Positions 47,065 through 64,000 of a stretch of DNA of 64,000 bases are shown piece after piece. The position numbers were made by a program, and so were the translations under genes. The notes under the pieces were generated by a model that ran no database searches, was not told the DNA's origin, and was given only the letters and a program-made list of their open reading frames with translations. The DNA is taken from contig CP070719.1 of assembly GCA_020350725.1 (NCBI GenBank), positions 2,119,855 to 2,183,854 on the forward strand, written 5' to 3'. This DNA is from a bacterium (lineage in GTDB: Bacteria > BMS3Abin14). Within the stretch, counting starts at the first letter, position 1, and each line of letters begins with the position of its first letter.

Positions 47065-47691
47065 TTATGCTTTCCTCCCCATCCTGTTCTTGATGTGCTT
47101 GAGACGGTAGATGTCCTCCCTCTCCCTCTCCTGGAGCGTCTCCAGCATCATCCTGATCTGCCGGGTGAGGGAAGGGATCAGGGACTGTTCGAGGGCGTTG
47201 ATCCTCCGGGATACCTTGCGGATCTCCTCGCCGAGTCTCTTGAGGCGGATCTCATGGCTGGCGACCCTCAGCAGGCGCTCGAGGAGCTGCTCGTAGGATT
47301 CGGCGGCCTCGAGGATGTAGGATGGCGTGTCCACGGGAAGCATCCCCCGGGCATCGGGCGTCCTCCGCATGGCCTGGAACTCCACCTCGGGGATGCGGAT
47401 GCCCCAGATATTCATCTCCCGGGTCCTGATGGAGATGTCCTCCCTTGCGGACAGGGAGGCGGCCCTTACCATGTGGGCCCCGCTGAAGGCTTTTGCCAGG
47501 CCGGCAAGGATCATGGACCTCTGAACGTCCCTGGCCATCTCATCCCTGCTGTGCACGATGGTGTCCACGATCCGGAAGAAATCCTTGATCAGGGCCTCCC
47601 TTTTGCTCTTCAGGAGTTCGACACCGTCCCGGGCCAGCGACAGCCTGCCGCGATGGACCAGGAGGTTCATCCTCGTGGCGGGCACGCTCAT
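47065..47691 (-). CDS. atpD: A/V-type ATPase subunit D (central rotor)
   Basis: Rotor shaft subunit inside the A3B3 head. N-terminal [29 protein letters not shown] and C-terminal [23 protein letters not shown] form the typical long antiparallel coiled coil; 208 residues is normal. Last gene of the operon, overlapping subunit B by four bases. Confidence 0.95.
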
Positions 47692-49100
47692 GATGATGCC
47701 TCGCTCTCCTCATCCTCATTGTCCGCCGGCAGGTACTTCTCGATCCACTGCCTGCCGATCCGGGTCAGTTCCGTGACGGGGAAGCCCGCCAGCAGCTGCC
47801 AGGCCTCGGCCAGGGACGTCTCGATATCCCGCTCCCTGTTGCCCTGGTTGAGGTACAGTTCTTCGAACCTGCGGGCGAAATCCAGGTAGCGCCTGTCCTC
47901 GGTGGTCATGGCGTCCTCGCCGACGATCGCCTCCATCCTCCTCAGGTCCCTTCCCCGGGCATAGAAGGCGTAGATCTGGTCGGCGAGGTTCCGGTGGTCG
48001 GCCCGGGTCTTGCCCTCGCCTATACCGAGGTTCATGAGCCGGGACAGGCTGGGCAGGACATCGATGGGGGGGAAAACCCCCTTTCTGTGAAGCTCCCTGG
48101 ACAGGACGACCTGGCCCTCGGTGATGTACCCCGTCAGGTCGGCAATGGGATGGGTGATGTCATCGTCAGGCATCGTCAGGATGGGGATCTGGGTGACGGA
48201 ACCCTCGCGCCCCCGGATGCGGCCCGCCCTCTCGTAGATGCTGGCAAGGTCCGTGTACATGTATCCGGGATAGCCCCGCCGACCCGGTATCTCCTCCCGG
48301 GCGTTGCCGATCTCCCTCAGGGCCTCACAATAGTTGGCCATGTCCGTGAGGACAACCAGAACGTGCATGTCATGGTCGAATGCCAGGTGCTCGGCGGCTG
48401 TTAAAGCCATCCTGGGGGTGAGGAGGCGCTCGATGGTGGGGTCCGAGGCGAGATTGAGAAAGACCACGGTCCTCTGGATGGCTCCCGTCGTCTGGAAGGC
48501 ATCAAGGAAAAAAGCCGCATCCCGGTGGGTGATCCCCATGGCCGCGAAGACGATGGCGAAGTCCTCCTCCTCGCCCAGGACACTGGCCTGACGGACGATC
48601 TGGACAGCCAGCTCGTTGGAGGGAAGCCCCGCGCCGGAGAAGATAGGCAGTTTCTGTCCCCTCACCAGTGTGTTGAGAAGATCGATGGCCGAGATCCCGG
48701 TCTGAATGAAGTCGGACGGCTTGTCCCTGGCGGTGGGATTGATGGCGTTGCCCACGATCTCCCTCTCCAGTTCGGGGATGGGATGCGGCGTGCCATCGAT
48801 GGGGACGCCGGATCCGGAAAAGGCGCGGCCCAGGATCTCCCGCGACAGCCTGAACCTCGCCGTGCTGGGTAGATAACGGACCGATATGGATTCCGTGTCG
48901 ATGCCCTGAGTCGTCTCGAAGAGCTGGGCCGTCGTCATCTCCTCGGAGAGCTCGAGGACCTGCCCTTTGCGCTGCTGACCCGTCTCGGTCCGCAGCTCGA
49001 TCATCTGTCCAAGGAATACCCCGGGCAGATATCTCATGCTTACCAGGGGACCGGAGATCCCGATCAGCCCCCGGCTCCGTCTATTCAGCAGGCTCTCCAC
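47688..49100 (-). CDS. atpB: A/V-type ATPase subunit B (non-catalytic)
   Basis: Regulatory nucleotide-binding subunit of the head. Conserved text includes [33 protein letters not shown] (the degenerate P loop typical of B) and [17 protein letters not shown]. The likely start is GTG at 49100, with AAGGAG upstream, giving 470 residues and overlapping the end of subunit A by 20 bases; the frame is open to 49163. Followed by subunit D with a four-base overlap. Confidence 0.95.
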
Positions 49101-50898
49101 CCTCTCCTTCCTCCTCGAAACGTTCCCTTTGGGTACGGATCTGCTCGGCAAGGTCCGAGACATCCTCCTTCAGGCGGTTCAGGACTTCCTCCGACGCGGA
49201 GGGGAATCGGTCGTCGGTAAGTTCGTTCAGCCTGGCCAGATCGCCTATTGCTCCGACGGCCAGGAGGTCCTCAAGGGGGATCTCCTCGGCGAGGCCGGAC
49301 AGGATGACTTCGTAGCCTTCCAGGAAGGCAGAGAGCATCCAGTACTGCTTTTTCATCGGGCAGGTGGCGTCCACCGGGTGATAGGCGTTCTGCCGGAGGA
49401 AGTTCTCCCGTATCAGACGGGCGCCCAGGAGAAGCACCCTCTCCGTGTCCGGGATGGCGTCCTCGCCCACCAGCTGGACCATCTCCAGGATCTCCTTCTC
49501 CCGTTCCAGCATTCTGTTGAGCCTCTGCCTCTGCACCGGCCAGTCCTCCGCCACCTGCTCAACATACCAGGGCGTCAACCTGGTTGTGAAAAGGCTGTAG
49601 CTCCGGGTCCAGTCGATGGCAGGGTAGTGGCGGCGGTGCGCCAGCGAGGTGTCCAGGGCCCACAGGGCTCCGGCGACCCTCATGGATGACTGCGTCACCG
49701 GCTCCGAGAAGTCTCCTCCCGGCGGCGAGACCGCGCTGACAACCGTCACCGATCCCGTCCGGCCGTTGGAGCCCAGGGTGCGGACCATACCCGCCCTCTC
49801 GTAGAAGGTGGCGAGCCTGGTGCCCATGTAGGTGGGATAACCCTCCTCGCCGGGCATCTCCTCGAGGCGGCTGGAGATCTCCCGCAGCGCCTCTGCCCAG
49901 CGGGAAGTGGAGTCCGCCATGAGGGCCACGTCGTACCCCATGTCCCTGTAGTATTCAGCCATGGTGATGCCCGTGTAGATGGACGCCTCGCGGGCGGCCA
50001 CCGGCATATTGGAGGTGTTGACCACCAGAACCGTCCTCTCCATCAGGGAACCGCCCGTCTGAGGATCCTCGAGAAGCGGGAACTCGGTCAGGACCTCGGT
50101 CATCTCGTTTCCCCTCTCCCCGCACCCGACATAGATGATGACGTCCGCATCGGCGTACTTTGCCAGGGTCTGTTCCACGACGGTCTTGCCGGTACCGAAT
50201 CCGCCGGGCACGATGGCGGTCCCCCCCCTGGCTATGGGGAAAAGGGTGTCCAGGATCCGCTGCCCGGTGATGAACGGCTGGTCGGGGGGCATCTTCTCGG
50301 CAAAGGGCCTGGGGATGCGTACCGGCCACCTGGTGATCATGCTCAGATCGACAATGCCGGCTCCGGTTTGGATCCGGACGACCGTTTCCTCGACTCTGAA
50401 ATCCCCCTGCCTGGCCTCCACCACCGTCCCGCCGATGTCGGGAGGGACCATGATGCGGTGCTCGATGCGCGAGCCCTCACGGGTGGTCCCCAACAGGTCG
50501 CCCCCGATCACGGTGTCCCCTTGCTTCACGGCGGGGCTGAAGGACCAGGACCGGTCCCGGTCGATGGAGGGTATCGAGGTGCCCCGCAGGATGAAGTCCC
50601 CCTCCTCCTGCCGCAGGGAATCGAGAGGCCGCTGGATGCCGTCGAAGGCCACACCGAGAAGGCCCGGCCCGAGCTCTACGGTCAAGGGATGTCCCTGGCA
50701 GCCGACCGGTTCCCCGATGGAGAGGCCCGACGTGTCCTCATAGACCTGGATGGTCGCCACGCCGGATTCGATCCGGATGATCTCCCCCATCAGGCCCCGT
50801 TCCCCCACCTTGGCAACATCGTACATCCGGGCGCCCGTCAGGCCTTTGGCCTCGACGGCCGATCCCGCGATGCTGTGAATGGAGCCGGCTGCCTGCAT
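49081..50898 (-). CDS. atpA: A/V-type ATPase subunit A (catalytic)
   Basis: Catalytic subunit. P loop [12 protein letters not shown] (about residue 233), [14 protein letters not shown], and [11 protein letters not shown] with the [12 protein letters not shown] loop. The bulge domain specific to A subunits is present, so this is not an F1 beta chain. GGAGGT precedes the ATG at 50898; 605 residues is normal. A 190-base spacer with family B repeats separates it from subunit F, so it may have its own transcript start. Confidence 0.96.
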
Positions 50899-50921
50899 GA
50901 GGATACCTCCGGTCAACGATC

Positions 50922-50955
50922 AAGTATTCAGTAGTCGGTATTCAGTATTCAGTGG
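50922..50955. repeat. Word repeat family B, copy 4
   Basis: AAGTATTCAGTAGTCGG then TATTCAGTATTCAGTGG, inside the ATPase operon between subunits F and A. Confidence 0.7.
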
Positions 50956-51050
50956 AAAACCCTCACATTGGCTCGGAAATACTGGAGAAATTGATCTGTT
51001 TTCATTTGATATCTTTTACCGCTCACTGTGATTTTTTCCCTTCGTGCCTT

Positions 51051-51084
51051 TTGACTGAATTCTGACTCCTTAATACTGACTACC
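51051..51084. repeat. Word repeat family B, copy 5
   Basis: TTGACTGAATTCTGACTCC then TTAATACTGACTACC, inverted relative to copy 4; together the copies flank about 95 bases. Confidence 0.7.
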
Positions 51085-51090
51085 AAATTA

Positions 51091-51420
51091 TTACCTTCTG
51101 ATCTTCAATCGATACCCGATGGCCCGGCGGATGATCCTGGTGATCATGTCCTCCTGTTCCGTCCAGAAATCCTCTCCCCGGGGGCGGGGCAGGGTGATGA
51201 ACAGGGGCCGGCCGCTCTCCTCGGCCTTGAGCCGCACCTTCTCGGGAAGGGACTCGTAAAGCTCCTCGGTGATGATGACAATGCCATGGGACCGTCCCCG
51301 CAGGAGGTCCATGACCCTCCACTCGAGCCGGGAGGGGTCGGAGCAGGTCTCCACGTCCGCGCCGGCCAGGGAAAAGCCCTCCACGATCTCCGGCTGTCCG
51401 ATGACCAGGATCTCAGACAT
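51091..51420 (-). CDS. atpF: A/V-type ATPase subunit F
   Basis: Small regulatory rotor subunit, 109 residues. Opens EILVIGQPEIVEGFSLAGADV and has GIVIITEELYESLPEKVR in the middle, the usual Rossmann-like pattern; the C-terminal helix segment ITRIIRRAIGYRLKI is kept. It overlaps subunit C by eight bases. Confidence 0.9.
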   Translation of the reverse strand: MSEILVIGQPEIVEGFSLAGADVETCSDPSRLEWRVMDLLRGRSHGIVIITEELYESLPEKVRLKAEESGRPLFITLPRPRGEDFWTEQEDMITRIIRRAIGYRLKIRR

Positions 51421-52450
51421 CTCCCACCACCTCCTGGAAGATCCCCGGGGAGATGCCCATGAAGATCCGGAGAAGGGCCAGCTTGAGGAGGATCCCCTCC
51501 CGGTAGAGGTTCAGCAGGTACGCGATAAGAAGGGACATGTCCAGAGGGTCGATATCCCTGAGCCGGGTGTACGCTCGGTGGAGCTCCCTGTCCAGCGCCT
51601 GCTGAAAGACGGAGCTCCTCCCGCCCAGGTCGAAGGGGACGGAGGCCTTTCGGACGGCGTTCTTCAGGATGCCCCTGGGGAGCATCAGGGCGATCTCGCC
51701 CACATCCGAGGCCCTGATGACCCGCAGGTAAAGGGAGGGTGTCAATTCTCCGCCCTTCTCCAGATAGAACCCCTCGGGACCCCTGTCCGTGGGCAGGGTG
51801 CGCCACATGAGGGCGGTCATCAGGTTCATCTGGTCCACTCGGTCCCCCAGGTAACGCATCAGGGATGGGAAGCCGGAACCGGATGCGATAAGGCGGATGT
51901 GGCCCACCAGGCCCCTGGTCAGCTCCAGCCGCATGTCGATCAGGGGTCGATCGTCCCTTCCAATGGCCCTCTTAAAAACCTTGGCGTAGGGGTAATGCCA
52001 CGTCACCAGCCTGTCGGCCGCCTCCCTGAGGGAGGAGGATCGGGCGAGCACCTCCAGCTGATCCTGGTCGAGGACTCCGCCGGCGATGGTGGAAGAGAGG
52101 ATCTGTTCCGGCTTGGCCCTGTAATGCAGGCCGCTGATCAGGGTCTGGAGGTTCTTGAGGTCCCACTCGGCCAGGAGGGCCGACAGGGCTGTGGCGGGCC
52201 GTCCGGAAGCAATTCGCGACAACCTGTGAGTTCGGGCTGCTGTGGACCGGTCCACAGCAGCCATGAGGGCGCCGCTGTCTCCGAAGGGAACGGATCCCCC
52301 CAGTTCCGCCGTGTACGGTGTCTCCCTCAGGCTGGCGACCCAATCACTGACAGTGGCGGACTCGGTTGTCTGACGGAGGCGCTCCTCGCTCATGAGGCGA
52401 GCCATCATGCCCCGGATCCTGGCGTTGATGTAGTCGATATACTCGACCAT
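51413..52450 (-). CDS. atpC: A/V-type ATPase subunit C (d-type, stalk-membrane connector)
   Basis: Funnel-shaped subunit between rotor and c ring. YIDYINARIRGMMARLMSEERLRQ opens the protein; the three-fold helical repeat with DLKNLQTLISGLHYRAKPEQI and LIAYLLNLYREGILLKLALLRI matches the family. 345 residues is normal. The previous gene (E) ends 17 bases upstream. Confidence 0.9.
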   Translation of the reverse strand: MVEYIDYINARIRGMMARLMSEERLRQTTESATVSDWVASLRETPYTAELGGSVPFGDSGALMAAVDRSTAARTHRLSRIASGRPATALSALLAEWDLKNLQTLISGLHYRAKPEQILSSTIAGGVLDQDQLEVLARSSSLREAADRLVTWHYPYAKVFKRAIGRDDRPLIDMRLELTRGLVGHIRLIASGSGFPSLMRYLGDRVDQMNLMTALMWRTLPTDRGPEGFYLEKGGELTPSLYLRVIRASDVGEIALMLPRGILKNAVRKASVPFDLGGRSSVFQQALDRELHRAYTRLRDIDPLDMSLLIAYLLNLYREGILLKLALLRIFMGISPGIFQEVVGDV

Positions 52451-52467
52451 GGCCAGCTTCCGTCCTG

Positions 52468-53139
52468 TCAGGCCTGATGGGACCTGGCAGGAATTCCGGC
52501 ATGGCCCCCTGTGTGCCCGTCCCTTGAGCCTCCGAAGAGTTCCTTGAGAAGGGCCAGAGGAGGGGTTTCCCTGATGGCCTGCAGCCTCGACAGAACGCTG
52601 TTGTCCCTGATCTCGAAGCTGTTGTTGACCGCGACCACGGCGCCTCCTATGAGCCGGGGGTCGCCGATCACCTCGGCACTCATTCCCCTGTCCTGGATGA
52701 TCGCGCCCACGGCCCCCTCGTCGGCCGGGTGGACCGTGATCTTAATGCCGGCCCCCTGACGGACGCCTTCGAGGGCCTCTGCCAAAAGCCTGGGGAGAGC
52801 GAGGCGCAGCTCGGAATCGAGGGTGGCCGATCCCGCGAGCATCCCCTCCAGCCTGGCGATGCCTTCCTCCAGAATGGAATACCGGCATTGGAGAAGGTGT
52901 CTCCTCGCTGAATTGGCGGCGAGATTCAGGATGCGGGCCGTCTCGCTCCCGGTCTCGATCTGCGTCCTTTCCAGGGTCTCCCTGAGGATCCTCTCGTTTG
53001 ACAGGTGGGCGTCTTCCTCGATCCGCCGCCCCTCAGTCTGCGCCTGAGCGAGGATGCCGTCGGCCTCCCTTCTGGCATCCCGCCAGAGGGATTCGACCAG
53101 TTGCTGACGACTGGGGGGTGATCTCCTCTCATCGTTCAT
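52468..53139 (-). CDS. atpE: A/V-type ATPase subunit E (peripheral stalk)
   Basis: Peripheral stalk subunit. A long N-terminal helix (about residues 15-105) is followed by the globular domain with PRLLAEALEGVRQG and IGGAVVAVNNSFEIRDNSVLSRLQ, a strong family mark. 223 residues, with a His/Gly-rich tail slightly longer than usual. Its ATG overlaps the end of subunit K by four bases. Confidence 0.88.
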   Translation of the reverse strand: MNDERRSPPSRQQLVESLWRDARREADGILAQAQTEGRRIEEDAHLSNERILRETLERTQIETGSETARILNLAANSARRHLLQCRYSILEEGIARLEGMLAGSATLDSELRLALPRLLAEALEGVRQGAGIKITVHPADEGAVGAIIQDRGMSAEVIGDPRLIGGAVVAVNNSFEIRDNSVLSRLQAIRETPPLALLKELFGGSRDGHTGGHAGIPARSHQA

Positions 53140-53357
53140 CTCAGCATCACCAGGATGAGGAAGGCGATGACGAAGCCGAGGATGACCATGGTCTCGGGTA
53201 TGGCGAGCAGGATGATCACCGTGCCGCTGACTTCCGGTCTCTCGGCGAGCGCCCCTGCGCCCGCGGAACCGATGCGGGACTGGGCCCAGCCCGTTGCCAG
53301 CGCGGGCAGCCCGATGGCCAGAGCGGCTGCAAAGGCCAATAGTGCTGTTTCACTCAT
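53136..53357 (-). CDS. atpK: A/V-type ATPase proteolipid subunit K (c ring), single hairpin
   Basis: 73 residues with two membrane helices, that is the short single-hairpin form rather than the duplicated 16-kDa form. The ion-binding Glu is in IPETMVILGFVIAF of helix 2; the polar loop is GSAGAGALAERPE. Start at 53357 with GGGGG upstream; the frame is open to 53450 but without coding character. Sodium or proton specificity cannot be decided from the sequence by eye. Confidence 0.9.
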   Translation of the reverse strand: MSETALLAFAAALAIGLPALATGWAQSRIGSAGAGALAERPEVSGTVIILLAIPETMVILGFVIAFLILVMLR

Positions 53358-53493
53358 GACGTTGCCCCCCTTCATTTGGGTATCGGAGTGTCTAGGTGTC
53401 GGGCTATCGGTGAAGACCAATTGCTTCGCTTGGTTACCGAATGGCGGCATGAGCTTCCCCGTTACCCCGTGACACCGATACTCCCATACTCGT

Positions 53494-55689
53494 TTACATC
53501 CTCCTGTTCTTCAGATAGCCCGTCTTCTGCGTCCTCTCCACGTACCGGCAGGCCTGCCTGGACAGGGTAAGCATCCGGCTGGGTTCGATCTCCTCATCGC
53601 CCTCCAGGACCGCCGCGCCGATGGCCAGATTGTAGGCTGCCTTGAATCGGTCGTTGAAGGCCGTGAGGAGGCGGCTGGCATATTCATCCACCAGGGATGC
53701 ATAGGTCAGGACCAGGAACTCACCCTGCGGCCTGCTCTGGACAAAGTCGTCCCCCATTCCGCCATCGGTCAGTGCCGCGGTGATGATCTCCTCGATCTCG
53801 CTGAGGTCCTCAACGGAAAGGGCCTCATCCGGGTGCACCCGGCTCGAGCTGTGGTTGACGTGGATGGTGAGCATGCCCACCGTTTTCCCCTCCGCCACCC
53901 GGTTGATCAGCTCGACGTTCAGGTTCTCGTCGCCGGGATACCAGGCCGTGATGCCCCTCTGGGGGCTGATCAGCCCCTGGGTGGGAAGGGAGAACCGGAA
54001 GGTCGTTCTCTGGTGCGGAATGCTCTGAACCGAGATGGTCCCTCCGTGCTGCTCTATGATCTCCTTGGTGAGAGGGAGGCCCAGGCCCGTTCCCTTGTCC
54101 TCGTCCTCGTCCTCGTCCTTTTCCAGGATTCCCCTGTAGAAACGGTTGAAGACGAGGTGCTGCTCCTCCTCGGGGATTCCCGGTCCGTTGTCGCTGATCT
54201 CGAAGACAGTCTGTCCCTCGGACTTCTCGATCCCCACCTCTATCTCGACCCCGCTTCCGCCGTGTTTGATGGCGTTGCCGATCAGGTTGACGAGGACCTG
54301 CTCGACCCTGTCCCTGTCGGCGATGAGAAGGGGCAGATCATAGTCACCGTGAAGGCTGATCATGGCCCCTCTCGTCTCGGCCTGGGGTTTGAGGAGCTTC
54401 ACGGTGTTCTCGACCGCCTCCACCGGGTCCACGGGTTCCTTGACCAGGGTCAGCTGGCCCGACTCCAGCCGGGCCAGGTCCAGGAAGTTGTTGATCATCC
54501 TGTTGAGACGCTTGCTCTCGTTGTTGATGATCGAAAGGTATTTTCGCTGGGGTTCAGGGATCCCGTCATCCCGGAGAACGAGCTCTGAAAATCCCTGGAT
54601 GGAGGTGAGGGGAGTCCTCAGTTCATGGGATACCGTGGAGATAAGCTCTGTCTTGAGGTGGTCCAGCTTCTGGATCTGACTTCGGTTGAGGATCCCGGAT
54701 ATCACCAGGTCGACGAAACGGGTGAGAATGTTCTGGGAGTTCCTCAGGATATCCATGTCCTCATTGTCCTGGGGGGGGACGGCGGACAATGCCAATCCGA
54801 ACATGTTGTGTCTCGGAGGAAGAAGATTCCTGATCAGGAGAAGAGACCCGTCAAGAACCAGATCCCAGGCAAAGCCGAGCTGGTTGAGCTGGTCACTCTC
54901 AGGATAGGGAGAGTGAAGCGGGAGCGAGGCCAGGTTCTGATAGAGACCAAAGCCTGACCGATAGTCCATCACCGCCACCTGGGATCGACCGTCCAGGGTC
55001 GTCCTTCCGACCCAGGCTCGGTTGGATCCGATCTCCCCCAGGATGACGAGATGGGAGTGAGGCCCGATAGCTGTCTTCATCGCCTCGATGGTCTTCGGGA
55101 TCAGACCGGATTCGATGTCCGTATGGCCCTGGTGAAGTTCCAGGAGGGCCGAGACCAGAGCCGCCGAGGCCGGCGCCAGTGAGCTCAGTCGGTCTCTGAA
55201 GCGAAGGTTTTCCATACCCATGCCCACCTGGAGGGCAAGCGGCCGGAGGGTGCGCAGGTTCTCCTCGGTGAAACCCTCGTCGCCGGTATTGTCCGAGACG
55301 TTCAGGACACCGAGGAGATAGCCCCTTCCCTTCAGGGGTATGCTCATGAAGGATCGGGTTCGATACCTGTGGGGAAAACGGCCCGCGAACCGGTTATCCT
55401 TGTCCACGTCCGGGACCAGGAGAGTCTCTCCCGTGGCTGCAACCCATCCCGCGATCCCCTCGCCGACGGGGATAGAGACCTTGCTGATGTCATCGGGGTA
55501 TCTGCCGGCCCAGGCGGTCAAAGTGAGATATTTACCCTGGGGACCCATGGACAGGATCGATACCCGTTCGGCGTCGAAGAGGGACAGGATCTTGTTGCAG
55601 AATGTGCGCAGGATGCTGGCCTCGTCGAGATTGGAGTTGAGCAGCTCCCCGATCTCGAGGAAGAGATCCTCGGAAACCCGTTTCGTCAT
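53494..55689 (-). CDS. Soluble GAF-domain histidine kinase embedded in the ATPase operon, with degenerate GGDEF-like C-terminus
   Basis: 731 residues with no membrane segment. GAF domain about 20-170 (IPVGEGIAGWVAATGE, FMSIPLKGRGYLLGVLNVSD), a second less clear sensor region about 175-335, HisKA with His355 in LISTVSHELRTPLTSIQGFSEL, and HATPase_c (NLIGNAIKHGG, DNGPGIPEEE, GTGLGLPLT). The C-terminal 130 residues read like a GGDEF fold without its signature: IEEIITAAL, QGEFLVLTYASL where GGDEF would be, then YNLAIGAAV and SRQACRYVERTQKTG. Its ATG overlaps the atpI stop by four bases, so it is truly part of the operon; K starts 136 bases later. Confidence 0.9.
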   Translation of the reverse strand: MTKRVSEDLFLEIGELLNSNLDEASILRTFCNKILSLFDAERVSILSMGPQGKYLTLTAWAGRYPDDISKVSIPVGEGIAGWVAATGETLLVPDVDKDNRFAGRFPHRYRTRSFMSIPLKGRGYLLGVLNVSDNTGDEGFTEENLRTLRPLALQVGMGMENLRFRDRLSSLAPASAALVSALLELHQGHTDIESGLIPKTIEAMKTAIGPHSHLVILGEIGSNRAWVGRTTLDGRSQVAVMDYRSGFGLYQNLASLPLHSPYPESDQLNQLGFAWDLVLDGSLLLIRNLLPPRHNMFGLALSAVPPQDNEDMDILRNSQNILTRFVDLVISGILNRSQIQKLDHLKTELISTVSHELRTPLTSIQGFSELVLRDDGIPEPQRKYLSIINNESKRLNRMINNFLDLARLESGQLTLVKEPVDPVEAVENTVKLLKPQAETRGAMISLHGDYDLPLLIADRDRVEQVLVNLIGNAIKHGGSGVEIEVGIEKSEGQTVFEISDNGPGIPEEEQHLVFNRFYRGILEKDEDEDEDKGTGLGLPLTKEIIEQHGGTISVQSIPHQRTTFRFSLPTQGLISPQRGITAWYPGDENLNVELINRVAEGKTVGMLTIHVNHSSSRVHPDEALSVEDLSEIEEIITAALTDGGMGDDFVQSRPQGEFLVLTYASLVDEYASRLLTAFNDRFKAAYNLAIGAAVLEGDEEIEPSRMLTLSRQACRYVERTQKTGYLKNRRM

Positions 55690-57578
55690 AGCGTGCTGTG
55701 TCTCCTGAAAGGTCTGTAGGGTCTGCCGCCGGGCTGATAGAACTTGCTGAAGAACTCCACATAGTGAAGCCTCAGCGAGTGGATGGTCGGTGAGAAAACC
55801 CCGAGGGCGAAGTTGAGGCTGTGAAAGATCAGGGCGATGATCACGCCGACGGCTATGGACCCCGCCGTTCCCCCCATCATGTTGGCGACCTTTGCCAGGA
55901 CCACCGATGACATGCCGATGGCCATCAGACGGGAGTAGGAGAGGATGTTGCCGAAGGTCTTGAGAAACTCCATTGGGCCCATGAGCCCCTCCGTGAAGAG
56001 CAGAGTCGTCAGTCCCAGGATGAGAAGGAGAATACCGACGGTGGAGGCCTCGGGCACATAACCGATGGCGGAAGCGACAAGGAGGATCGCCCCGGTGAGG
56101 GCGAGAATATTTGCCGTGGCGGAAGCCCCGTGACGGCCGTGCCTCTGCCGGATCCCTATCAGCAGACTGAGACAGAAACCGATGAGTATGTGGGCCACTC
56201 CCAGTCCAATAGCGATGAAGAGAAGGGGCATGAACAGCCTGCTCCTGTCCATGAGAAGGGGATGGAGGCCCCAGTGCTCCCCCAGATCTCCGACAAATTC
56301 TCCGAAGAGCGCCCCGAAGACTATTGCTGACGTGCCGCCGAGCATGAATATGGAGGCGAGACTGGCCACCAGAGGTATTTCCCGGAACCTGTAGCGGAGG
56401 AACGATGACAGGCCCAGGAGGGCGAGGCCGTACCCTATGTCCCCGAGGATAAAGCCGAAGAAGAGGGGGAAGAAAAAGGCCATGAACGGGGTGGGGTCAA
56501 GGGTACCATAGCGGGGCAGGGCCAGAAGACGGATGAGCGGCTCGAAGATCCTCACGAAGGGTCTGTTCCTGAGCTCCACGGGCACCTCACTGAACTCCTT
56601 GAGGCCCGCAGGCGCCACCTCGACCGTTATCTCTTCGTGGTAGTTGCTCCTGATCCCGTTCAGGAGAAGGTCGACCTTGTCCGCGGGGATCCAGCCCCTG
56701 AGGAAAAACGTGTGCCGGCTCTGGGCCCCGTACGAGACGGTCTGGATCTCATCGAGTCTCTCGACGATGATCTCCTCGATCCTGGCCAGACAGCCGCTCC
56801 ACCGGGAGGACAGGTCGGACAGCCTCTCTTCGGCCAGTGAGATCTGCCCCGGCAGCTCCTTCCGTCGATGGATAATAAGCCGGAGAGTGGTCGCGAGAGG
56901 CTTGTCCGAATAGGTCTCCGGCAGTCTGATATCCGTGATGCTCTCCCGGGTGAGGAGCGTCCTGACCGTCCTGTCGTATTCCGGGGGATAGGCGACGATG
57001 GCTGCTATATTCTCGCGATCCATGTCCCCGGTGAAGATCACGGACCTGCTGTCGGTGATCCTTTCCAGCGCCTTGTCGAGGATGGGAATGACCCCCTCAC
57101 GCTTTCTCTCGAGGATGATCCCCATGAGTTCGAGCTTCTCCACCTCCGTGGCCCTCTGAAGCAGTGGGTACAGTGCGGCGACCACCCTTTCGTACCGGGA
57201 GAGCATCGCCAGTTCGTTGCGGAGGGTGAGAAGTTCGTCGAAGGGCGGAGAGATCTGCCCGTCGGCCTTCTGGAGGCAGTCCTTCAGGTCCGATGAGGAG
57301 ATGTTGCGGTCGAAGAGCCATGCCGGTGCGGTTGGGGATGTCCCGGGAGGGGGAAGGGAAGACCGTAGCCTCCTCACCCGCTCCAGGAGGTCCGCGAGCT
57401 GGACCCTGATGTCGTCCGCCTCCCTGGGCCTGCTGGAGGATTCCAGACAGTCGATCCTGTGCCCTGCTGTGGGAAAGGGGTCAAAATGGACCGTGCCGAT
57501 GGAGTGAATCAGGTCCAGAGTGCCGGTAAAGTACCGGCGGGGCCCCATGATGGTGGCCTTGACCATGGGTGTGATCAT
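55686..57578 (-). CDS. atpI: A/V-type ATPase subunit I (a-type membrane stator)
   Basis: Stator subunit forming the ion half-channels. The N-terminal half (about 1-320) is cytoplasmic and helical; the C-terminal half has about eight membrane helices beginning near GTLDPTPFMAFFFPLFFGFILGDIGYG. Late segments FGNILSYSRLMAIGMSSVVLAKVAN and HSLNFALGVFSPTIHSLRLHYVEFFSKFY are highly typical. 630 residues is normal. Overlaps subunit H upstream and the kinase downstream, each by four bases. Confidence 0.94.
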   Translation of the reverse strand: MITPMVKATIMGPRRYFTGTLDLIHSIGTVHFDPFPTAGHRIDCLESSSRPREADDIRVQLADLLERVRRLRSSLPPPGTSPTAPAWLFDRNISSSDLKDCLQKADGQISPPFDELLTLRNELAMLSRYERVVAALYPLLQRATEVEKLELMGIILERKREGVIPILDKALERITDSRSVIFTGDMDRENIAAIVAYPPEYDRTVRTLLTRESITDIRLPETYSDKPLATTLRLIIHRRKELPGQISLAEERLSDLSSRWSGCLARIEEIIVERLDEIQTVSYGAQSRHTFFLRGWIPADKVDLLLNGIRSNYHEEITVEVAPAGLKEFSEVPVELRNRPFVRIFEPLIRLLALPRYGTLDPTPFMAFFFPLFFGFILGDIGYGLALLGLSSFLRYRFREIPLVASLASIFMLGGTSAIVFGALFGEFVGDLGEHWGLHPLLMDRSRLFMPLLFIAIGLGVAHILIGFCLSLLIGIRQRHGRHGASATANILALTGAILLVASAIGYVPEASTVGILLLILGLTTLLFTEGLMGPMEFLKTFGNILSYSRLMAIGMSSVVLAKVANMMGGTAGSIAVGVIIALIFHSLNFALGVFSPTIHSLRLHYVEFFSKFYQPGGRPYRPFRRHSTL

Positions 57579-58000
57579 GCCGATCCTCCCAGGAGATGCC
57601 TCAGGATGATGGCGACGATCTCGTCGGGCCTGTGTTCCATGTCAGCCTTTTCCCCGTCCGCGAGAGCCTCCCCCTCGAGGACGATCCTTCCGGCCTCTTC
57701 CTCCGCCTCTCTCAGCAGTTTCTCCCGGAGGGCGCCAGCCTCCCGTTGAGCCGTCTCTCGACCGGAGTCCCTGAGTTTCTCGGACAGGGCAGCAGCGGCG
57801 GACAGGATCCTCTCCGCCTCGGCCCTCTTCGACTCGAGGAAGCGATCGATCTCGCCCTCGGCCCGGTGGATCTCCGCGATGAGAAGACTGTCATCTACGT
57901 CATTCGGGCGCGATCTGTCCCTCGTTGAGCCCATCGACCTCTTTTCCCCCGCCTCTGAGCGGCTTTGGCCTGCCAGTTTGAACTCATTTTCGACCCTCAC
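57575..58000 (-). CDS. atpH: A/V-type ATPase subunit H (peripheral stalk, G-like)
   Basis: Long helical protein rich in Ala, Glu and Arg (EIDRFLESKRAEAERILSAA), the expected partner of subunit E. 141 residues if the start is at 58000; an internal ATG at 57934 would give 119, closer to the family. The assignment rests on composition and position, first in an operon and directly before subunit I. Confidence 0.75.
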   Translation of the reverse strand: MRVENEFKLAGQSRSEAGEKRSMGSTRDRSRPNDVDDSLLIAEIHRAEGEIDRFLESKRAEAERILSAAAALSEKLRDSGRETAQREAGALREKLLREAEEEAGRIVLEGEALADGEKADMEHRPDEIVAIILRHLLGGSA

Positions 58001-58148: not shown

Positions 58149-58220
58149 CGGATGGACGCCGCCATCCCTGCCCCTCACGGCGAAAGACAGACAGATATCG
58201 GAGGGGCCAGGACCGTATAT

Positions 58221-58352
58221 ATTATTTGTACATCTTTCTGTTCCTCCTGATCTCCTGATCCCTCTCGAGTTTTAGGGCCGAAAATGGCGGTGGTTCAGCC
58301 ACATGCCATCACGGCGGTGAATAATTATTATGTACACCTTTCTGTTCCCTCC
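58221..58352. promoter_or_regulatory. Pair of direct repeats, candidate activator sites
   Basis: ATTATTTGTACATCTTTC... at 58221-58247 and ATTATTATGTACACC... at 58324-58352 share a core of the form TGTACA-YCTTTCTGTTCC plus TCC, 103 bases apart. They lie about 106-130 and 211-237 bases upstream of the predicted start from the sigma-54 promoter, suitable for an enhancer-binding protein. Confidence 0.6.
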
Positions 58353-58431: not shown

Positions 58432-58447
58432 TGGCACGGTATATGCT
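58432..58447 (+). promoter_or_regulatory. Sigma-54 (RpoN) promoter
   Basis: TGGCACG-N4-ATGCT, with GG at 58433-58434 and GC at 58445-58446 twelve bases apart; only the first T of the -12 TTGC differs. It lies 57 bases before the first gene of the quinone-complex cluster. Confidence 0.8.
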
Positions 58448-58503
58448 CTGGGTTTTTACGAGAGGGGAAGACCGCGATGCAACGGAGGAAAAAGGAGGCA
58501 GCC

Positions 58504-58752
58504 ATGAAGACCTATTTCCAGACAGCTTTGCTGACACTCGTCTTCTATTCCACATCGGCGTTCGCCGCCAGCGGCGCCGAGGGAGGGGGTAGCGGTTGGG
58601 CGATCAAACTCTTCTTCGCCTTTCTGGCGGCCATTATCGTCCTTCAGCTGATCCCGGCCCTGGTCCTCTTCGGTTCAATGGTCGCAGCCGTTTTCAGGCG
58701 GGCACCGAAGGAGGCCGAACTGGTTGAAACCGAGCAGACGAACCGAAGTTGA
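58504..58752 (+). CDS. Small membrane protein with signal peptide, paralogue of the gene at 59258
   Basis: 82 residues: signal peptide to about 22 (STSAFA), a Gly-rich linker and one membrane helix (about 33-58) ending in a basic, then acidic, cytoplasmic tail. The helix carries the pattern LQLIPALVLFGSM, shared with the next-but-one gene (AQLVPALVLLMGG). GGAGG precedes the ATG. First gene after the sigma-54 promoter. Possibly a small accessory subunit of the membrane redox complex downstream (inference). Confidence 0.7.
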   Translation: MKTYFQTALLTLVFYSTSAFAASGAEGGGSGWAIKLFFAFLAAIIVLQLIPALVLFGSMVAAVFRRAPKEAELVETEQTNRS

Positions 58753-59219
58753 TGAACGCGATGCCGGAGGCTCCAATGAGCGCTTGGGGGACAAATACCA
58801 TGCGGCTGCTCCTCATAGCCGACAAGGATACGGACGTCCGCCGACAGATAACGGAGATCTTCGAAGAGGGTGATTATCAGGTCATCGCCCCCCAGTCGGT
58901 GGACGCCGTGCTGCGCGATGTCCTCAAAAGGGACGTGAAGGTCATCGTGCTCGGCAGCGAATTCGACGACATGCCGGCTAAGGAGCTCATCCCTCTCCTG
59001 AAAAGCTGCAAGAGGGATCTCACTATTATTCTGATTTCCGACGAGGAATCACTGCCACTGCTGAGGAAATTCCGCCGTGAGGGGATCTTTTACCATGCCC
59101 TGAAGCCGATCAACAGGGAGGACAGAGACGAACTCCGTCAGGTCGTCAAGTGCGCCTTCGAGAACTCATCCGACAGGCTGTGGTCGGCACGGTTGTCTCA
59201 GAATAACCATGGGGAATAG
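58752..59219 (+). CDS. Receiver-domain protein lacking the phospho-acceptor Asp
   Basis: 155 residues, single REC-like domain without output. LLIADKDTDVRRQI keeps the acidic pocket and LISDEES and ALKPIN keep the conserved Ser/Thr and Lys positions, but the strand that should end in the phospho-Asp reads KVIVLGSEFDDMP, so Gly replaces Asp. The ATG at 58752 overlaps the previous stop; an ATG at 58776 with GGAGG five bases upstream may be the true start. Response regulators such as Rrf1 sit in hmc operons of Desulfovibrio, so a receiver in a quinone-complex operon has precedent. Confidence 0.78.
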   Translation: MNAMPEAPMSAWGTNTMRLLLIADKDTDVRRQITEIFEEGDYQVIAPQSVDAVLRDVLKRDVKVIVLGSEFDDMPAKELIPLLKSCKRDLTIILISDEESLPLLRKFRREGIFYHALKPINREDRDELRQVVKCAFENSSDRLWSARLSQNNHGE

Positions 59220-59257
59220 GGCCATTCCTGCCCTCCCCGGAAGGAAGGAGGACCATC

Positions 59258-59554
59258 ATGAAGACGTTCATGGGATCAAGGGGGTCGGTTGTCTTTGGCG
59301 CTGTGGTGAGAACGATCATCGCGGCCCTGGTGCTTTACCTGGCCGGAACCAGTCCGGCATTCGCGGTTGACACCACAAAGACCTACAACAGCGGCATCCT
59401 CGTCAGCATTTTCCTTGGTGTCTGTGCGCTGATCGTCATTGCCCAGCTGGTTCCCGCACTGGTCCTGCTGATGGGCGGTATCAAGGCGCTCATCTCGGGG
59501 AGGACCAGGAAGGAGGCGACCGTGGCTGTTGAGTCGGGCCGGGAGAACGGCTGA
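59258..59554 (+). CDS. Small membrane protein, paralogue of the gene at 58504
   Basis: 98 residues. Signal-like hydrophobic stretch to about 36 (TSPAFA), then a helix (about 46-75) with IAQLVPALVLLMGGIKAL matching its paralogue, then a basic-acidic tail RTRKEATVAVESG comparable to RRAPKEAELVETE. GGAAGGAGG precedes the ATG. It lies in the same operon, separated from the paralogue by the receiver gene. Confidence 0.7.
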   Translation: MKTFMGSRGSVVFGAVVRTIIAALVLYLAGTSPAFAVDTTKTYNSGILVSIFLGVCALIVIAQLVPALVLLMGGIKALISGRTRKEATVAVESGRENG

Positions 59555-59622
59555 AACCTTGCGCCGGTTGGAATCCGACCGGCGTTTTCCTAGACCGGAG
59601 ACCGAGCAAAAGGAGAGAGGAA

Positions 59623-59808
59623 ATGGCAGAGTTGTTGGGGAGGTTCTTCAGTTCGATCGGGCGGGTCGTCGAGTGTTGCACCCTTGTGGACTTCTACAAC
59701 TATATCAAGGCAGTCGAATACCTTATCTGCGTTGGATTCTTCGTCACCTTCCCGCTGTTCTACAAGCACGTGATCAAGCCGCCGACGAAGACAGATGAGC
59801 CGGGTTAG
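59623..59808 (+). CDS. 61-residue membrane protein
   Basis: A single helix in the second half (YLICVGFFVTFPLFYKHVI) after an amphipathic start with two adjacent Cys (VVECCTLVDFYNY). GGAGAGAGG lies upstream. Small one-helix subunits occur in Hmc-type and other NrfD-linked complexes, and its operon position supports such a role; there is no family match I can name. Confidence 0.65.
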   Translation: MAELLGRFFSSIGRVVECCTLVDFYNYIKAVEYLICVGFFVTFPLFYKHVIKPPTKTDEPG

Positions 59809-59909
59809 CTGTCACAGAGAAAGGACCCCCGTTCCCATGGCGTGGCAGTGCGCACGGCCGGGATCACGGGCGGCCTTCGGGGCCGGAGTCAGACAGGAGG
59901 ATGCAGAGG

Positions 59910-60434
59910 ATGGTTAGGAACTGGATATGGGTCATAGTTTCAGTATTGGCGATGATATTCACCTCACCGGGGATGAGCCGGAGCGGTGACACCAGGATGC
60001 CCTCATTGGTCGTAATTGACGCGCTTTCCCATCTCTTTGACGCGGCTGAATTCGACCATGACCTGCATCTCGATTTCGCCGAGAGCTGTTCGGAATGCCA
60101 TCACCACACTACCGGGACCGATGTTACGGACGGGCGTTGCCTCCCGTGCCACGACGGGAGCGAGGCTCTGGACACCGTAGCCTGCGGGAAGTGTCATGTG
60201 GCCCAGCCGTTTTCCGCGGAATATCTCCGGAAAAGGCAGGTAGAGGGGTCTTTTTATCACATCGACAAGCCGGGCCTGAAGGCGGCTTACCACCTCAACT
60301 GCCTCCAGTGCCATATGGAGATGGGTGGCCCGGAAGGCTGCCAGGACTGTCACACCCGGAACGAGACGGGTGAGGCGTTCTACTATTCAGGCCGGTTCAT
60401 GCCGGCAGGGAAACAGTCCGGTGACGGTCATTAG
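59910..60434 (+). CDS. Periplasmic pentaheme c-type cytochrome
   Basis: Signal peptide of about 25 residues, then five CXXCH motifs in about 150 residues: CSECHHH, CLPCH, CGKCH, CLQCH and CQDCH, with class III-like His-rich spacing (FDHDLHLDF). Start at the ATG at 59910, nine bases after AGGAGG; an ATG at 59901 abuts that site. It probably passes electrons between the Fe-S/NrfD module and soluble periplasmic cytochromes. Comparable partners are the pentaheme ActA and the cytochromes of Hmc or Qrc complexes (family knowledge, not proven here). Confidence 0.9.
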   Translation: MVRNWIWVIVSVLAMIFTSPGMSRSGDTRMPSLVVIDALSHLFDAAEFDHDLHLDFAESCSECHHHTTGTDVTDGRCLPCHDGSEALDTVACGKCHVAQPFSAEYLRKRQVEGSFYHIDKPGLKAAYHLNCLQCHMEMGGPEGCQDCHTRNETGEAFYYSGRFMPAGKQSGDGH

Positions 60435-60490
60435 GCGGGATGTCGAGCCGCTGATCATTTTCATTGAGAGAGGAAAGGAGGCAAACCGTC

Positions 60491-61429
60491 ATGAGTGGAA
60501 TAAGCCGTAGAGGATTTCTGGCGGCAGCTGTTATCGGCGGAGCGTCAACCCTGGTGGGCACCCCGACGAGGGGCTGGTCGGCCAACAGTTTTGACGGGTA
60601 TCCGGAGGGAATGGGGGTTCTGGTTGATCTGACCCGCTGCGTGGGGTGCCGCAGCTGCGAGGCCGCCTGTAACCATGAGCAGGGTCTGCCCGAACCCGAT
60701 CTCCCCTTCGACGACATGTCGGTGTTTGATCAGACTTTCCATCACGGCACCCAGAAGCGCAGGACAGATGAAAACGCCTACACGGTGGTCAACCGTTATG
60801 AGCCTGAAGAGGGCGGTGCCCCTGTTTACCGTAAGATCCAGTGCAACCATTGCAATGAACCGGCCTGCCTGACCTCCTGCTTCGTCAATGCCTACACCAA
60901 GACACAGGAAGGGGCGGTTATCTACGATTCAAAAGTCTGCGTGGGTTGCCGCAACTGCATGGTCGCCTGTCCCTTCCGCATACCGGCCTACGCCTATTCC
61001 AGCGCGTTGAATCCCGTCGTCAGGAAATGCATCTTCTGCTACGACACCCGCCTGAGCCAGGGTCGTCCGCCCGCCTGCGTGGAGATCTGTCCTCAGGAGG
61101 TCCTCACTTTCGGTTACCGCCGGGACCTTCTCAAGACGGCCCATGACAGGATAAGGACCGACCCGGAGAGATATATCGACCATGTTTACGGCGAAAAGGA
61201 GGTGGGCGGGACCGCCTGGTTGTACATCTCGGCCGTTCCCTTCGAGGAACTAGGCTTCGACACGAGTCTTCAGAGAGAGCCGATCCTGGCCAACGCCCAG
61301 GACTTCCTCTCCAACGTCCCCATGGTTCTTGCTATCTGGCCCGCCCTGTTCATGGGCTTCCATCGTCTTTCGACCAAGGGAAAAGAGCGTGAGGAAGAAA
61401 GCCAAAGCTTCGATCGTGAGGAGGGGTAA
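60491..61429 (+). CDS. Tat-exported ferredoxin-like subunit (HmcB/HybA/DsrO-type)
   Basis: Twin-arginine signal ISRRGFLAAAVIGG at residues 4-17. Four Cys sets make the usual 4x[4Fe-4S] array: CVGCRSCEAACNH (about 48-60), CNHCNEPACLTSC, CVGCRNCMVACPF and CIFCYD...CVEICPQEVLTFG. A C-terminal hydrophobic segment (MVLAIWPALFMGF) suggests a membrane anchor, as in HybA and HmcB. 312 residues. GGAGG precedes the ATG, and the NrfD gene starts one base after its stop. It carries electrons between the pentaheme cytochrome and the membrane subunit. Confidence 0.93.
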   Translation: MSGISRRGFLAAAVIGGASTLVGTPTRGWSANSFDGYPEGMGVLVDLTRCVGCRSCEAACNHEQGLPEPDLPFDDMSVFDQTFHHGTQKRRTDENAYTVVNRYEPEEGGAPVYRKIQCNHCNEPACLTSCFVNAYTKTQEGAVIYDSKVCVGCRNCMVACPFRIPAYAYSSALNPVVRKCIFCYDTRLSQGRPPACVEICPQEVLTFGYRRDLLKTAHDRIRTDPERYIDHVYGEKEVGGTAWLYISAVPFEELGFDTSLQREPILANAQDFLSNVPMVLAIWPALFMGFHRLSTKGKEREEESQSFDREEG

Positions 61430-61430
61430 A

Positions 61431-62777
61431 ATGAAAGGCCTGCTTGAAAATGGATACAGACCGATCGATTCTTTACAGAAGAGTCCGGGCGGGAGGAGGT
61501 GGACCTTCACCGAGAAGATGCTCCTAGGCCTGAGTCCGCGTGAGTATCTCAACCAGGTTCTCCGCAATCCCCTGAACTGGGTGTTCGCCGCTGTCTTCGC
61601 TGTCGGTGTGCCCCTCATCCTCTATCGCTACCTGTTCGGGCTGGGAGCGGTGACGCACAGCTCGAACGATTACCCCTGGGGCCTCTTCCTCGGTTTCGGA
61701 CTCTTCGTCATGGTTCCTCTGTCCGCCTCCGGGTTCCTTCTCGGGACGACGGTAGAGCTGTTCGGGCGAAAGGATTTCAAGCCCATCGAGAGGCTGGCGC
61801 TTCTCAACGGCCTCCTGGGGTACTTCTTCGCAGTCGTCTATCTCATGGTCGACCTGGGTCAGCCCTGGCGCCTGCCCTATCCCATGTTCGTCTCGTGGGG
61901 GACGGCGGCCGTCCTCTTCCTGGTGGGCTGGCATGTCGCCACCTATCTCTCGGTCCAGATCATGGAAGTGTCCGAGTCGTTTTTCGAATGGGTCAACTGG
62001 CCCAATGCGAGGGCATATATCAAGAGGATCACCATCGGTCTGACGGTGGCCGGCATCATTCTGTCCACCCTCCACCAGGGAGCCTTGGGCGCCCTGTTCA
62101 CCTACGCTCCGGGGAAGGTCCATCCCCTCTGGTATTCGGAAAACTACCTGTGGATCTTCTACTTCTGCTCATCCGTCTTCGCCGGTCTGTGCATGGTGAT
62201 AGTGGTCAGCACGGTGGTGAAGAGGACCATGGCCTGGCGCTGCGACAGGAATTTCCTCGACAACCTGGACAGGATAACGCTGGGCCTGGCCAAAGGGGCC
62301 AGCATGGCCCTCGTTACCTATCTTGTCATCAAGCTGATCGGCATAGCCCATGACAATGAATGGGCCTATCTTGCCACCGGATGGGGACGGTGGTTCCTCC
62401 TCGAACTCCTCCTGGGAGTGATCACACCCATCATCCTGTTCTCGGTGGCGATCAGGCGGAACATGGTGGGCCTGATCCGGTTTACCGCCTTCCTGACGGT
62501 GCTCGGCATCGTTCTGAACCGCCTGAACACGGCTTTGATCGCCTTTAACTGGAACCTCTACCAGGAGATACCCCACCTGTTCGAGGCGATGATATCGGTC
62601 ACTCTTTTCTGCGTGTACCTCGTCACCTACCGCTTCATCCTCTACCGTCTGCCGGTCCTTTACGCCTGGCAGTCGGTTCCGGATGAGGTTTACGCGGTCG
62701 AACTGGAAAGGGGTTTGATACCTGGACAGGAGCTGGTGCCCGCGCCAGCCTATCAAAGGATCGAGGATTCGCCATAA
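61431..62777 (+). CDS. NrfD/HybB-family quinone-interacting membrane subunit
   Basis: 448 residues with about ten membrane helices, the long (HybB/HmcC) form of the PF14589/NrfD-type family. Typical segments: GLFLGFGLFVMVPLSASGFLLG, DLGQPWRLPYPMFVSWGT and STLHQGALGALFTYAPGKVHPLWYSENY. It exchanges electrons with menaquinone without cofactors of its own. Start at the ATG at 61431 (MKGLLENGYRP). The operon probably ends here at the hairpin at 62784-62819. Confidence 0.93.
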   Translation: MKGLLENGYRPIDSLQKSPGGRRWTFTEKMLLGLSPREYLNQVLRNPLNWVFAAVFAVGVPLILYRYLFGLGAVTHSSNDYPWGLFLGFGLFVMVPLSASGFLLGTTVELFGRKDFKPIERLALLNGLLGYFFAVVYLMVDLGQPWRLPYPMFVSWGTAAVLFLVGWHVATYLSVQIMEVSESFFEWVNWPNARAYIKRITIGLTVAGIILSTLHQGALGALFTYAPGKVHPLWYSENYLWIFYFCSSVFAGLCMVIVVSTVVKRTMAWRCDRNFLDNLDRITLGLAKGASMALVTYLVIKLIGIAHDNEWAYLATGWGRWFLLELLLGVITPIILFSVAIRRNMVGLIRFTAFLTVLGIVLNRLNTALIAFNWNLYQEIPHLFEAMISVTLFCVYLVTYRFILYRLPVLYAWQSVPDEVYAVELERGLIPGQELVPAPAYQRIEDSP

Positions 62778-62898: not shown

Positions 62899-63756
62899 AT
62901 GACAGGGAGAAGGGGCATGTTCAACAACTTCGCGGGGAGGGCGATCGTGCCCGTGGCGATCACCATGACGGGCTTTGTGATCGTCTGTTCCATCATCCTG
63001 TACAACCTGATCAAGAAGGATCTTGTCAACGATACGATCTACCATGAGGCCAGCCTCGCCGACACCATCATCAAGGCCACCCGCTACGCGATGATCAAAT
63101 CGGATCGGGAGACCATCGACCAGATCGTCGTCAATATCGGACAGCAGGAAGGTGTCGAGTTTGTCCGCATCTTCACCTGTGGCGGCGTGATCATGATATC
63201 CTCCGATCCGGCAGAGCAGGAAGTCGCCCTGGGGGCCGGGAACGCGGGCTGCATCGGTTGTCACAGTGGCCCTGAGCCGGAAAACCACCTCGGTCCGCTG
63301 GAGAAGGCCCGGCAGTTCACCAATGCGGACGGTGAGAAGGTGATCGCGATCACAGCTCCCATATACAATGAGCCCGCTTGTTTCAACGGCGCCTGTCACT
63401 ACCATTCGCCGAGCCAGAAATTCCTCGGGATACTGGATATAGGTCTGTCCCAGCGGACCCTGGAAAACACCCTGGGCACCCTTCGACTCCAAATGATCGC
63501 CTTCTGCCTGATGATCCTGGTCCTGTCGGTGGGTGGAGTAAGTGCTCTGCTGAGGGTAAACGTCCTGTCTCCCATCAGGAGTTTGATGAGCTACGTGGGG
63601 GACGTGTCCCGGGGGCAGTTGGACCGAACGCCGCCGAGGGGGGTTGAGGAGGTCGAGTATCTCTCCAAGGCCTTCCTCGAGATGGCCAGGGACAGGAGCA
63701 GATGCGAAGAGGAGCTTGAGAAATATCGGCCAAAAGATGCTAATATGACTTCCTAG
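62899..63756 (+). CDS. Membrane sensor with periplasmic heme motifs and HAMP domain, no output domain
   Basis: TM1 about residues 15-36, periplasmic domain about 37-195, TM2 about 197-218, HAMP about 219-270, then it stops 15 residues later. The periplasmic domain contains CIGCH (near 118) and a CX4CH-type CFNGACH (near 162), like c-heme PAS-type sensors described in Geobacter. No kinase, methyl-accepting or cyclase domain follows. A start at residue 7 (MFNNFAG) is also possible. It may act through a separate partner, perhaps the gene that begins at 63824. Confidence 0.82.
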   Translation: MTGRRGMFNNFAGRAIVPVAITMTGFVIVCSIILYNLIKKDLVNDTIYHEASLADTIIKATRYAMIKSDRETIDQIVVNIGQQEGVEFVRIFTCGGVIMISSDPAEQEVALGAGNAGCIGCHSGPEPENHLGPLEKARQFTNADGEKVIAITAPIYNEPACFNGACHYHSPSQKFLGILDIGLSQRTLENTLGTLRLQMIAFCLMILVLSVGGVSALLRVNVLSPIRSLMSYVGDVSRGQLDRTPPRGVEEVEYLSKAFLEMARDRSRCEEELEKYRPKDANMTS

Positions 63757-63823: not shown

Positions 63824-64000
63824 ATGCCGATGACCACTGTGAAGCCTCAGAACATCTCCCAGGAAGCCAACGGGGCGACGGCAGACCGTGATCGCCTTCG
63901 TCGGGAAACTCAGGAAAGGATCCGATTCCTCCGGCGCCAGCTCCGCATGGGTATGCTGGGAATGGTTATCTTCACCGCCCTCAGCGCCATTGCCATGCTC
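63824..64000 (+). CDS. N-terminus of a membrane protein (3' partial)
   Basis: An open frame from ATG 63824 (or 63830) runs to the window end without stop. It encodes about 40 hydrophilic, Arg/Gln-rich residues (RETQERIRFLRRQLR) and then the start of a membrane helix (MGMLGMVIFTALSAIAML). Too short to assign. It follows the heme sensor in the same direction and could be its signalling partner. Confidence 0.5.
   Translation, partial: MPMTTVKPQNISQEANGATADRDRLRRETQERIRFLRRQLRMGMLGMVIFTALSAIAML

Follow-up and report, generated by a model that had tools for sequence, protein, structure and literature searches.

Nhc of Desulfovibrio (NhcABCD) combines a nine-haem cytochrome c, a four-cluster iron–sulfur (Fe-S) protein, an NrfD-like subunit with 10 transmembrane (TM) helices and a small D subunit. 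Hmc of D. vulgaris (HmcABCDEF) has a 16-haem HmcA and also HmcE and HmcF. Geobacter Cbc5/CbcBA (cbcEDCBA) has a different core, consisting of a 7-haem CbcA, a cytochrome b561 (CbcB) and CbcC. CbcBA is a low-potential menaquinol oxidase (PMC12307469) and in G. sulfurreducens supports respiration near the energy limit. Here we describe an operon of a bacterium of the BMS3Abin14 lineage that shares features with all three. It lies in a stretch of 64,000 nucleotides (contig CP070719.1, positions 2,119,855 to 2,183,854), referred to below as the window. We think it probable that the operon specifies a menaquinone:periplasmic cytochrome c oxidoreductase of the Nhc/Hmc type and has a chassis in the style of Cbc5, with an upstream trio of two small membrane proteins (S) around a receiver (R), here called S-R-S, acting in assembly or regulation.

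The seven genes at 58504–62777 of the window (P0001 to P0007; Table 1) run in one direction, and every part that an earlier sequence-only reading had placed there is present. Judged by homology, the redox core is Nhc/Hmc-like and contains an HmcD-like protein, a five-haem cytochrome, an HmcB-like Fe-S protein exported by twin-arginine translocation (Tat) and an HmcC/NrfD-like quinone subunit. HmcB and HmcC were the best matches of P0006 and P0007, far ahead of HybA/HybB, Qrc, Dsr and other NrfD/Fe-S families. The sequence-only reading of an NrfD-type quinone complex thus holds, and the complex is of the kind to which Hmc, Hyb and Nhc belong. The scores (393.8 bits for HmcB and 372.5 bits for HmcC) are under the NCBIfam equivalog cut-offs of 420 and 550. 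P0007 is NrfD-like, as is NhcC (52.3 bits with PF03916), and P0006 has the four cysteine motif sets of a four-cluster NhcB. The count of five CXXCH motifs in P0005 was the same in 72 of 72 homologues checked; the protein aligns with the C-terminal halves of HmcA and nine-haem NhcA, in the latter with residues 177–288 only. P0004 had been taken for a novel partner. By itself it gave 14.1 bits with the NCBIfam HmcD model, under the cut-off of 34, and 33 of its 38 family members matched that model (best E 2e-5), so that it is better described as a small D subunit. Because of the HmcB, HmcC and HmcD matches and the five-haem P0005, we read the core as an Nhc-like set with a shortened cytochrome.

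Like NhcABCD, the window operon encodes a multihaem cytochrome c, a four-cluster Fe-S protein, a 10-TM NrfD-like subunit and a small D subunit, and neither system has cytoplasmic redox subunits. By contrast, the five haems of the window cytochrome correspond to the C-terminal half of nine-haem NhcA, the D gene comes first, S-R-S lies upstream and CbcD/E-like genes lie downstream. The operon shares HmcB, HmcC and HmcD homologues with Hmc, and a receiver gene (rrf1) is also found near the Hmc operon. However, 16-haem HmcA, HmcE and HmcF are absent; between the sigma-54 promoter and the gene for a 174-amino-acid (aa) protein, where all genes are accounted for, there was no NarI-like HmcE gene and no cytoplasmic HmcF-like gene. 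The complex is neither true Hmc nor true Nhc because defining features fail. Nhc proper was rejected on the missing nine-haem NhcA and the subunit content, and Hmc proper on the equivalog scores, HmcA and HmcE/HmcF.

Other described complexes fit less well. Tail-anchored Fe-S/HybB modules similarly have a C-tailed Tat Fe-S protein directly before a HybB/NrfD-like subunit, with periplasmic c cytochromes, but the window operon has a pentahaem cytochrome, an HmcD-like subunit and conserved flanks, whereas the flanking genes of those modules are reported not to be conserved (PMC10924467). Qrc was rejected (QrcD, 52.1 of 570 bits; no QrcB-like gene in the operon), as was alternative complex III on family scores and subunit content. 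Geobacter Cbc3 (Rieske protein, cytochrome b and 5-haem cytochrome; PMC10989804) and Cbc4 (CbcT orthologous to DsrO; PMC11434368) have different cores and were rejected as equivalents. Among the candidates that had been named earlier, Hmc, with its relative Nhc, fits the core and Cbc5 fits the flanks, while Qrc fits poorly. The arrangement had been called unmatched. In the open literature searched, we likewise found no complex that matches it in subunits and gene order, and no description of the S-R-S trio. The exact complex and S-R-S appear to be undescribed, with a core of a known kind.

By sequence, the three upstream genes are one conserved module in which two members of one family surround a receiver without the phospho-aspartate. 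Iterative searches seeded by either P0001 or P0003 collected the same 135 open reading frames, which supports the suggestion that these two proteins are related. In the S family a signal peptide, with AxA at its end in most members, is followed by a short exported segment, a single TM helix in which Q..P is invariant, and a short tail that is basic. They gave only scattered Pfam matches (E 0.0089 or worse), none of them to Psp families, and nothing convincing in the PDB; Psp-family homology was rejected on this absence of a convincing relative. P0002 has a receiver fold in its predicted structure (predicted local distance difference test score, pLDDT, 88.5). The term pseudo-receiver, used earlier, is apt. 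Asp54 of Spo0F aligns with Gly or Ser in approximately 94% of 58 R homologues, and the family keeps the conserved Lys and the receiver fold. An R branch from other lineages (L239, L241 and L249) keeps the phospho-Asp.

The order P0001 to P0008 is kept in relatives; the 12 sampled genomes of the window's phylum-level group all belong to one family. Genome contigs were scanned and yielded 80 loci, most of them Desulfuromonadales-type, that have the same gene order or minor variants; Desulfuromusa kysingii, Malonomonas rubra, Citrifermentans bremense and Geomonas are among the carriers. As the same genes are found in this order in relatives and in Desulfuromonadia, the gene set is not due to chance, and the unusual upstream set that had been pointed out is real. 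Outside a Desulfobulbales-type clade, an S gene is directly upstream in 44 of the 49 loci with enough sequence, two S genes are upstream in 41/49 and an S gene is somewhere in the locus in 47/49. Of 57 loci outside that clade, 56 have P0008 downstream of P0007. Within the clade, neither an S gene (0/14) nor P0008 (0/14) was found, yet the cytochrome/HmcB/HmcC core is present. Thus, S-R-S and P0008 co-vary across loci. In a P0007 tree the window group falls outside the Desulfobulbales clade and has Tharpellota and related uncultured bacteria as its neighbours. The S family occurs in 11 of 12 genomes of the window's phylum, in 40 of 395 of the Citrifermentans phylum and in one of about 370 other sampled genomes, whose matches are those of one of the 40.

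Some variants of the locus were also seen. Where the core lacks S-R-S and P0008 (L109–L136, Desulfobulbales-type), the gene for an HmcD-like protein lies farther downstream, in many cases behind that for a kinase-like membrane sensor. A second S-R-S or S-S copy lies downstream of the same operon in L088, L077 and L079, and the trio is on the opposite strand in L096, L097 and L103.

The predicted sigma-54 promoter of the window operon agrees at 15 of 17 bases with the G. sulfurreducens RpoN consensus TTGGCACGGTTTTTGCT (PMC2725144). A sigma-54 site with a score of at least 9 was found upstream of the first S gene in 52 of 61 homologous loci, compared with 3% of shuffles. In other S contexts there was such a site at 39 of 44 first S genes versus 0 of 20 S genes that are not first. 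The palindrome TGTAT-N9-ATACA, with one mismatch at most, occurs in 42/62 homologous upstream regions (1.2 in shuffles) and in 26/46 of the other S contexts (0.7 in shuffles), usually as two copies approximately 102 bp apart at about –312 and –211. Genes for an NtrC-type regulator and a kinase adjoin the operon (L004:9022-12187, minus strand), and this pair is present beside most loci. The kinase shares the c-haem sensor domain of P0008 (CXXCH and CX4CH). Transcription would start from the sigma-54 promoter with two enhancer sites, and the adjoining NtrC-type regulator is the most likely activator.

The operon had been delimited at 58504–62777. Its seven genes stand, but it is longer and continues with P0008, a haem-sensor HAMP protein, and then with the 174-aa membrane protein, which extends past the window end. 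P0008 has a CXXCH and a CX4CH haem motif, and its AlphaFold2 model is of moderate quality (pLDDT 77) with Cache/PAS sensors as fold matches. The sensor profile of this type matches the Geobacter c-haem sensor GSU0935 (E 1.5e-4), and the fold match agrees. P0008 is 46% identical to its CbcD-like homologue in L222, and the 174-aa family was also found in L222, L224 and L229. The window operon thus has the CbcD-like 2-haem HAMP protein and the CbcE-like membrane protein of Cbc5/CbcBA, in addition to S-R-S, a sigma-54 promoter and an adjoining histidine kinase and NtrC regulator. Unlike L222, L229 and L224, it lacks the 7-haem CbcA and cytochrome b561-like CbcB and instead has the HmcD/5-haem/HmcB/HmcC core.

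It had also been supposed that the small membrane proteins and the receiver were particular to this complex. This did not hold, since the same module precedes Cbc5/CbcBA-type operons. S-R-S or R-S is found before 7-haem cytochrome and cytochrome b561 operons in L222, L224 and L229 and also in L213 and L217. Such operons carry a 9–12-haem cytochrome and CbcD-like and CbcE-like genes, the fullest case being L222 (9-haem), and this set matches the published Cbc5 composition (PMC7894505, PMC11434368, PMC10989804). S-S-R precedes a 9–11-haem cytochrome and cytochrome b561 in L238, L248 and L249. In G. sulfurreducens, GSU0596 is annotated as a response receiver and GSU0597 as hypothetical (PMC10599522); by gene numbering both adjoin cbcEDCBA, and from numbering and annotation they would be the same module. 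Because S-R-S and S-S-R flank other complexes with shared promoters, the small partners recur as a sigma-54-controlled accessory of quinone–cytochrome complexes and are not unique to the window locus. As an add-on, S-R-S precedes respiratory complexes in many metal- and sulfur-respiring bacteria. On this view the respiratory core (HmcBC, CbcAB or other multihaem/b561 pairs) is exchangeable, whereas the chassis is constant and comprises S-R-S, the haem-HAMP protein, the small membrane protein, a sigma-54 promoter with paired enhancers, and the haem-sensing two-component pair. The same view suggests testable roles for the hypothetical and response receiver genes beside cbcEDCBA in the genetically tractable G. 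sulfurreducens.

From the subunit homologies, gene order, co-occurrence and promoter and enhancer sites described above, we infer the following path. Menaquinone would exchange electrons at P0007, with help from the HmcD-like P0004; these would travel through the four Fe-S clusters of P0006 to or from P0005, which may link onward to the periplasmic multihaem pool. We propose this exchange from what the NrfD, HmcB and multihaem families are established to do. Operation close to equilibrium and at low potential is probable, and the complex may run in both directions. S-R-S would supply two single-span membrane proteins with signal peptides and a cytoplasmic receiver that is not phosphorylatable at the usual place. 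R may dock on the short cytoplasmic tails of S, or on the HAMP domain of P0008, and docked R might help to assemble or gate quinone–cytochrome complexes with phosphorylation no longer needed.

Several observations weigh against this oxidoreductase with S-R-S as its accessory. Both palindromes in the window carry two mismatches each, the Cbc5 label for L222, L224 and L229 is drawn from subunit composition and not from comparison with GSU sequences, and sequence cannot tell the direction of electron flow. In two genomes (L211 and L215) an F1Fo ATP synthase operon begins with an S-R pair, and there are many solitary S genes with no constant neighbour. Because of these last two observations, it may be that S-R-S binds no quinone complex. 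S-R-S could be a sigma-54-controlled device for envelope stress or proton-motive force, Psp-like in logic, that is only co-transcribed with respiratory operons and is no partner of the complex. Consistent with this, S genes standing alone carry sigma-54 promoters of their own at many sites, the S-R pair precedes the ATP synthase operon, and the trio can shift strand or be duplicated. However, S-R-S strongly co-varies with the complex and P0008, and the S proteins have no sequence match to Psp families in Pfam, so we regard such a device as rather unlikely.

With respect to direction, an ordinary Nhc/Hmc complex could work as a menaquinone reductase, in which a periplasmic cytochrome reduced by hydrogenase, from outside the cell or by a partner feeds menaquinone. 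Nhc is given as a TpIc3:quinone oxidoreductase in PMC8076601, Hmc/Nhc match the core best, and a Cbc5-type complex is predicted to run in reverse, in this same direction, in Seep-SRB2 (PMC10553843). The genome encodes one [NiFe]-hydrogenase large subunit, and no haem-copper oxidase was found in it. By contrast, the flanks and regulation are those of Cbc5/CbcBA, which in Geobacter is a menaquinol oxidase complex, and extracellular acceptors are respired by many carriers. We consider a menaquinone reductase possible but somewhat improbable.

Receivers without output domains can work through protein contact, so R might be a dedicated transcription-control protein of the operon and no structural or assembly partner. 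The rrf1 and rrf2 genes beside hmc in D. vulgaris encode regulators of hmc expression (PMC10924467). However, R sits among S membrane genes even away from the complex, and an NtrC regulator and kinase already adjoin the operon, which makes such a role for R improbable, the most doubtful of those considered here. A broader and distinctly speculative idea is that S and R serve anaerobic electron-transport complexes generally, as an accessory so far undescribed, with single-span subunits and a docked, phosphorylation-independent receiver. Under a sigma-54 regulon with c-haem sensors, it would gate or assemble menaquinone–cytochrome complexes, and possibly ATP synthase, near the thermodynamic limit.

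Table 1. Positions in the window of the operon's genes and upstream sites.
Feature	Position	Strand	Remarks
Enhancer-like palindrome, copy 1	58214..58232	+	CGTATATATTATTTGTACA; TGTAT-N9-ATACA type, 2 mismatches
Enhancer-like palindrome, copy 2	58318..58336	+	TGAATAATTATTATGTACA; 2 mismatches, 104 bp after copy 1
Sigma-54 –24/–12 promoter	58432..58448	+	TTGGCACGGTATATGCT; score 11
S protein 1 (P0001)	58504..58752	+	82 aa; signal peptide and one TM helix
R, pseudo-receiver (P0002)	58776..59219	+	147 aa; Gly at phospho-Asp position
S protein 2 (P0003)	59258..59554	+	98 aa; same family as P0001
HmcD-like small membrane subunit (P0004)	59623..59808	+	61 aa
Exported pentahaem cytochrome c (P0005)	59901..60434	+	Five CXXCH; matches C-terminal part of HmcA/NhcA
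HmcB-like Tat-exported protein (P0006)	60491..61429	+	Four Fe-S cluster motifs; hydrophobic C-terminal tail
HmcC/NrfD-like quinone-reactive membrane subunit (P0007)	61431..62777	+	
CbcD-like protein (P0008)	62899..63756	+	TM, PAS/Cache-like c-haem sensor, TM, HAMP; no output domain
CbcE-like membrane protein	63824..64000	+	174 aa; gene cut by window end (L004:7679-8203)

Additional observations were made on the S and R families and on other parts of the genome. The receivers in L211 and L215 are 238–243 aa long and have a phospho-Asp-like motif. Four genomes (L240, L242, L244 and L247) have a lone S gene that carries its own sigma-54 site and is divergent to a pair of IscU/NifU-like and cysteine desulfurase genes. 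The window's genome has a second cluster (L005, G000:C1:2540000-2558000), with genes for a Tat Fe-S protein, two NrfD subunits and a multi-TM cytochrome with 12 haems. In the window, an exported protein of 1008 aa with 16 CXXCH motifs is encoded at 42428–45454, and by eye there are RnfA-like and CcsA/ResC-like genes at 13779–14357 and 15419–16237. Divergent from the quinone-complex operon is an operon that by eye is V/A-type ATPase-like (47065–58000, minus strand), and inside it lies a gene for a 731-aa GAF-type sensor kinase (53494–55689).

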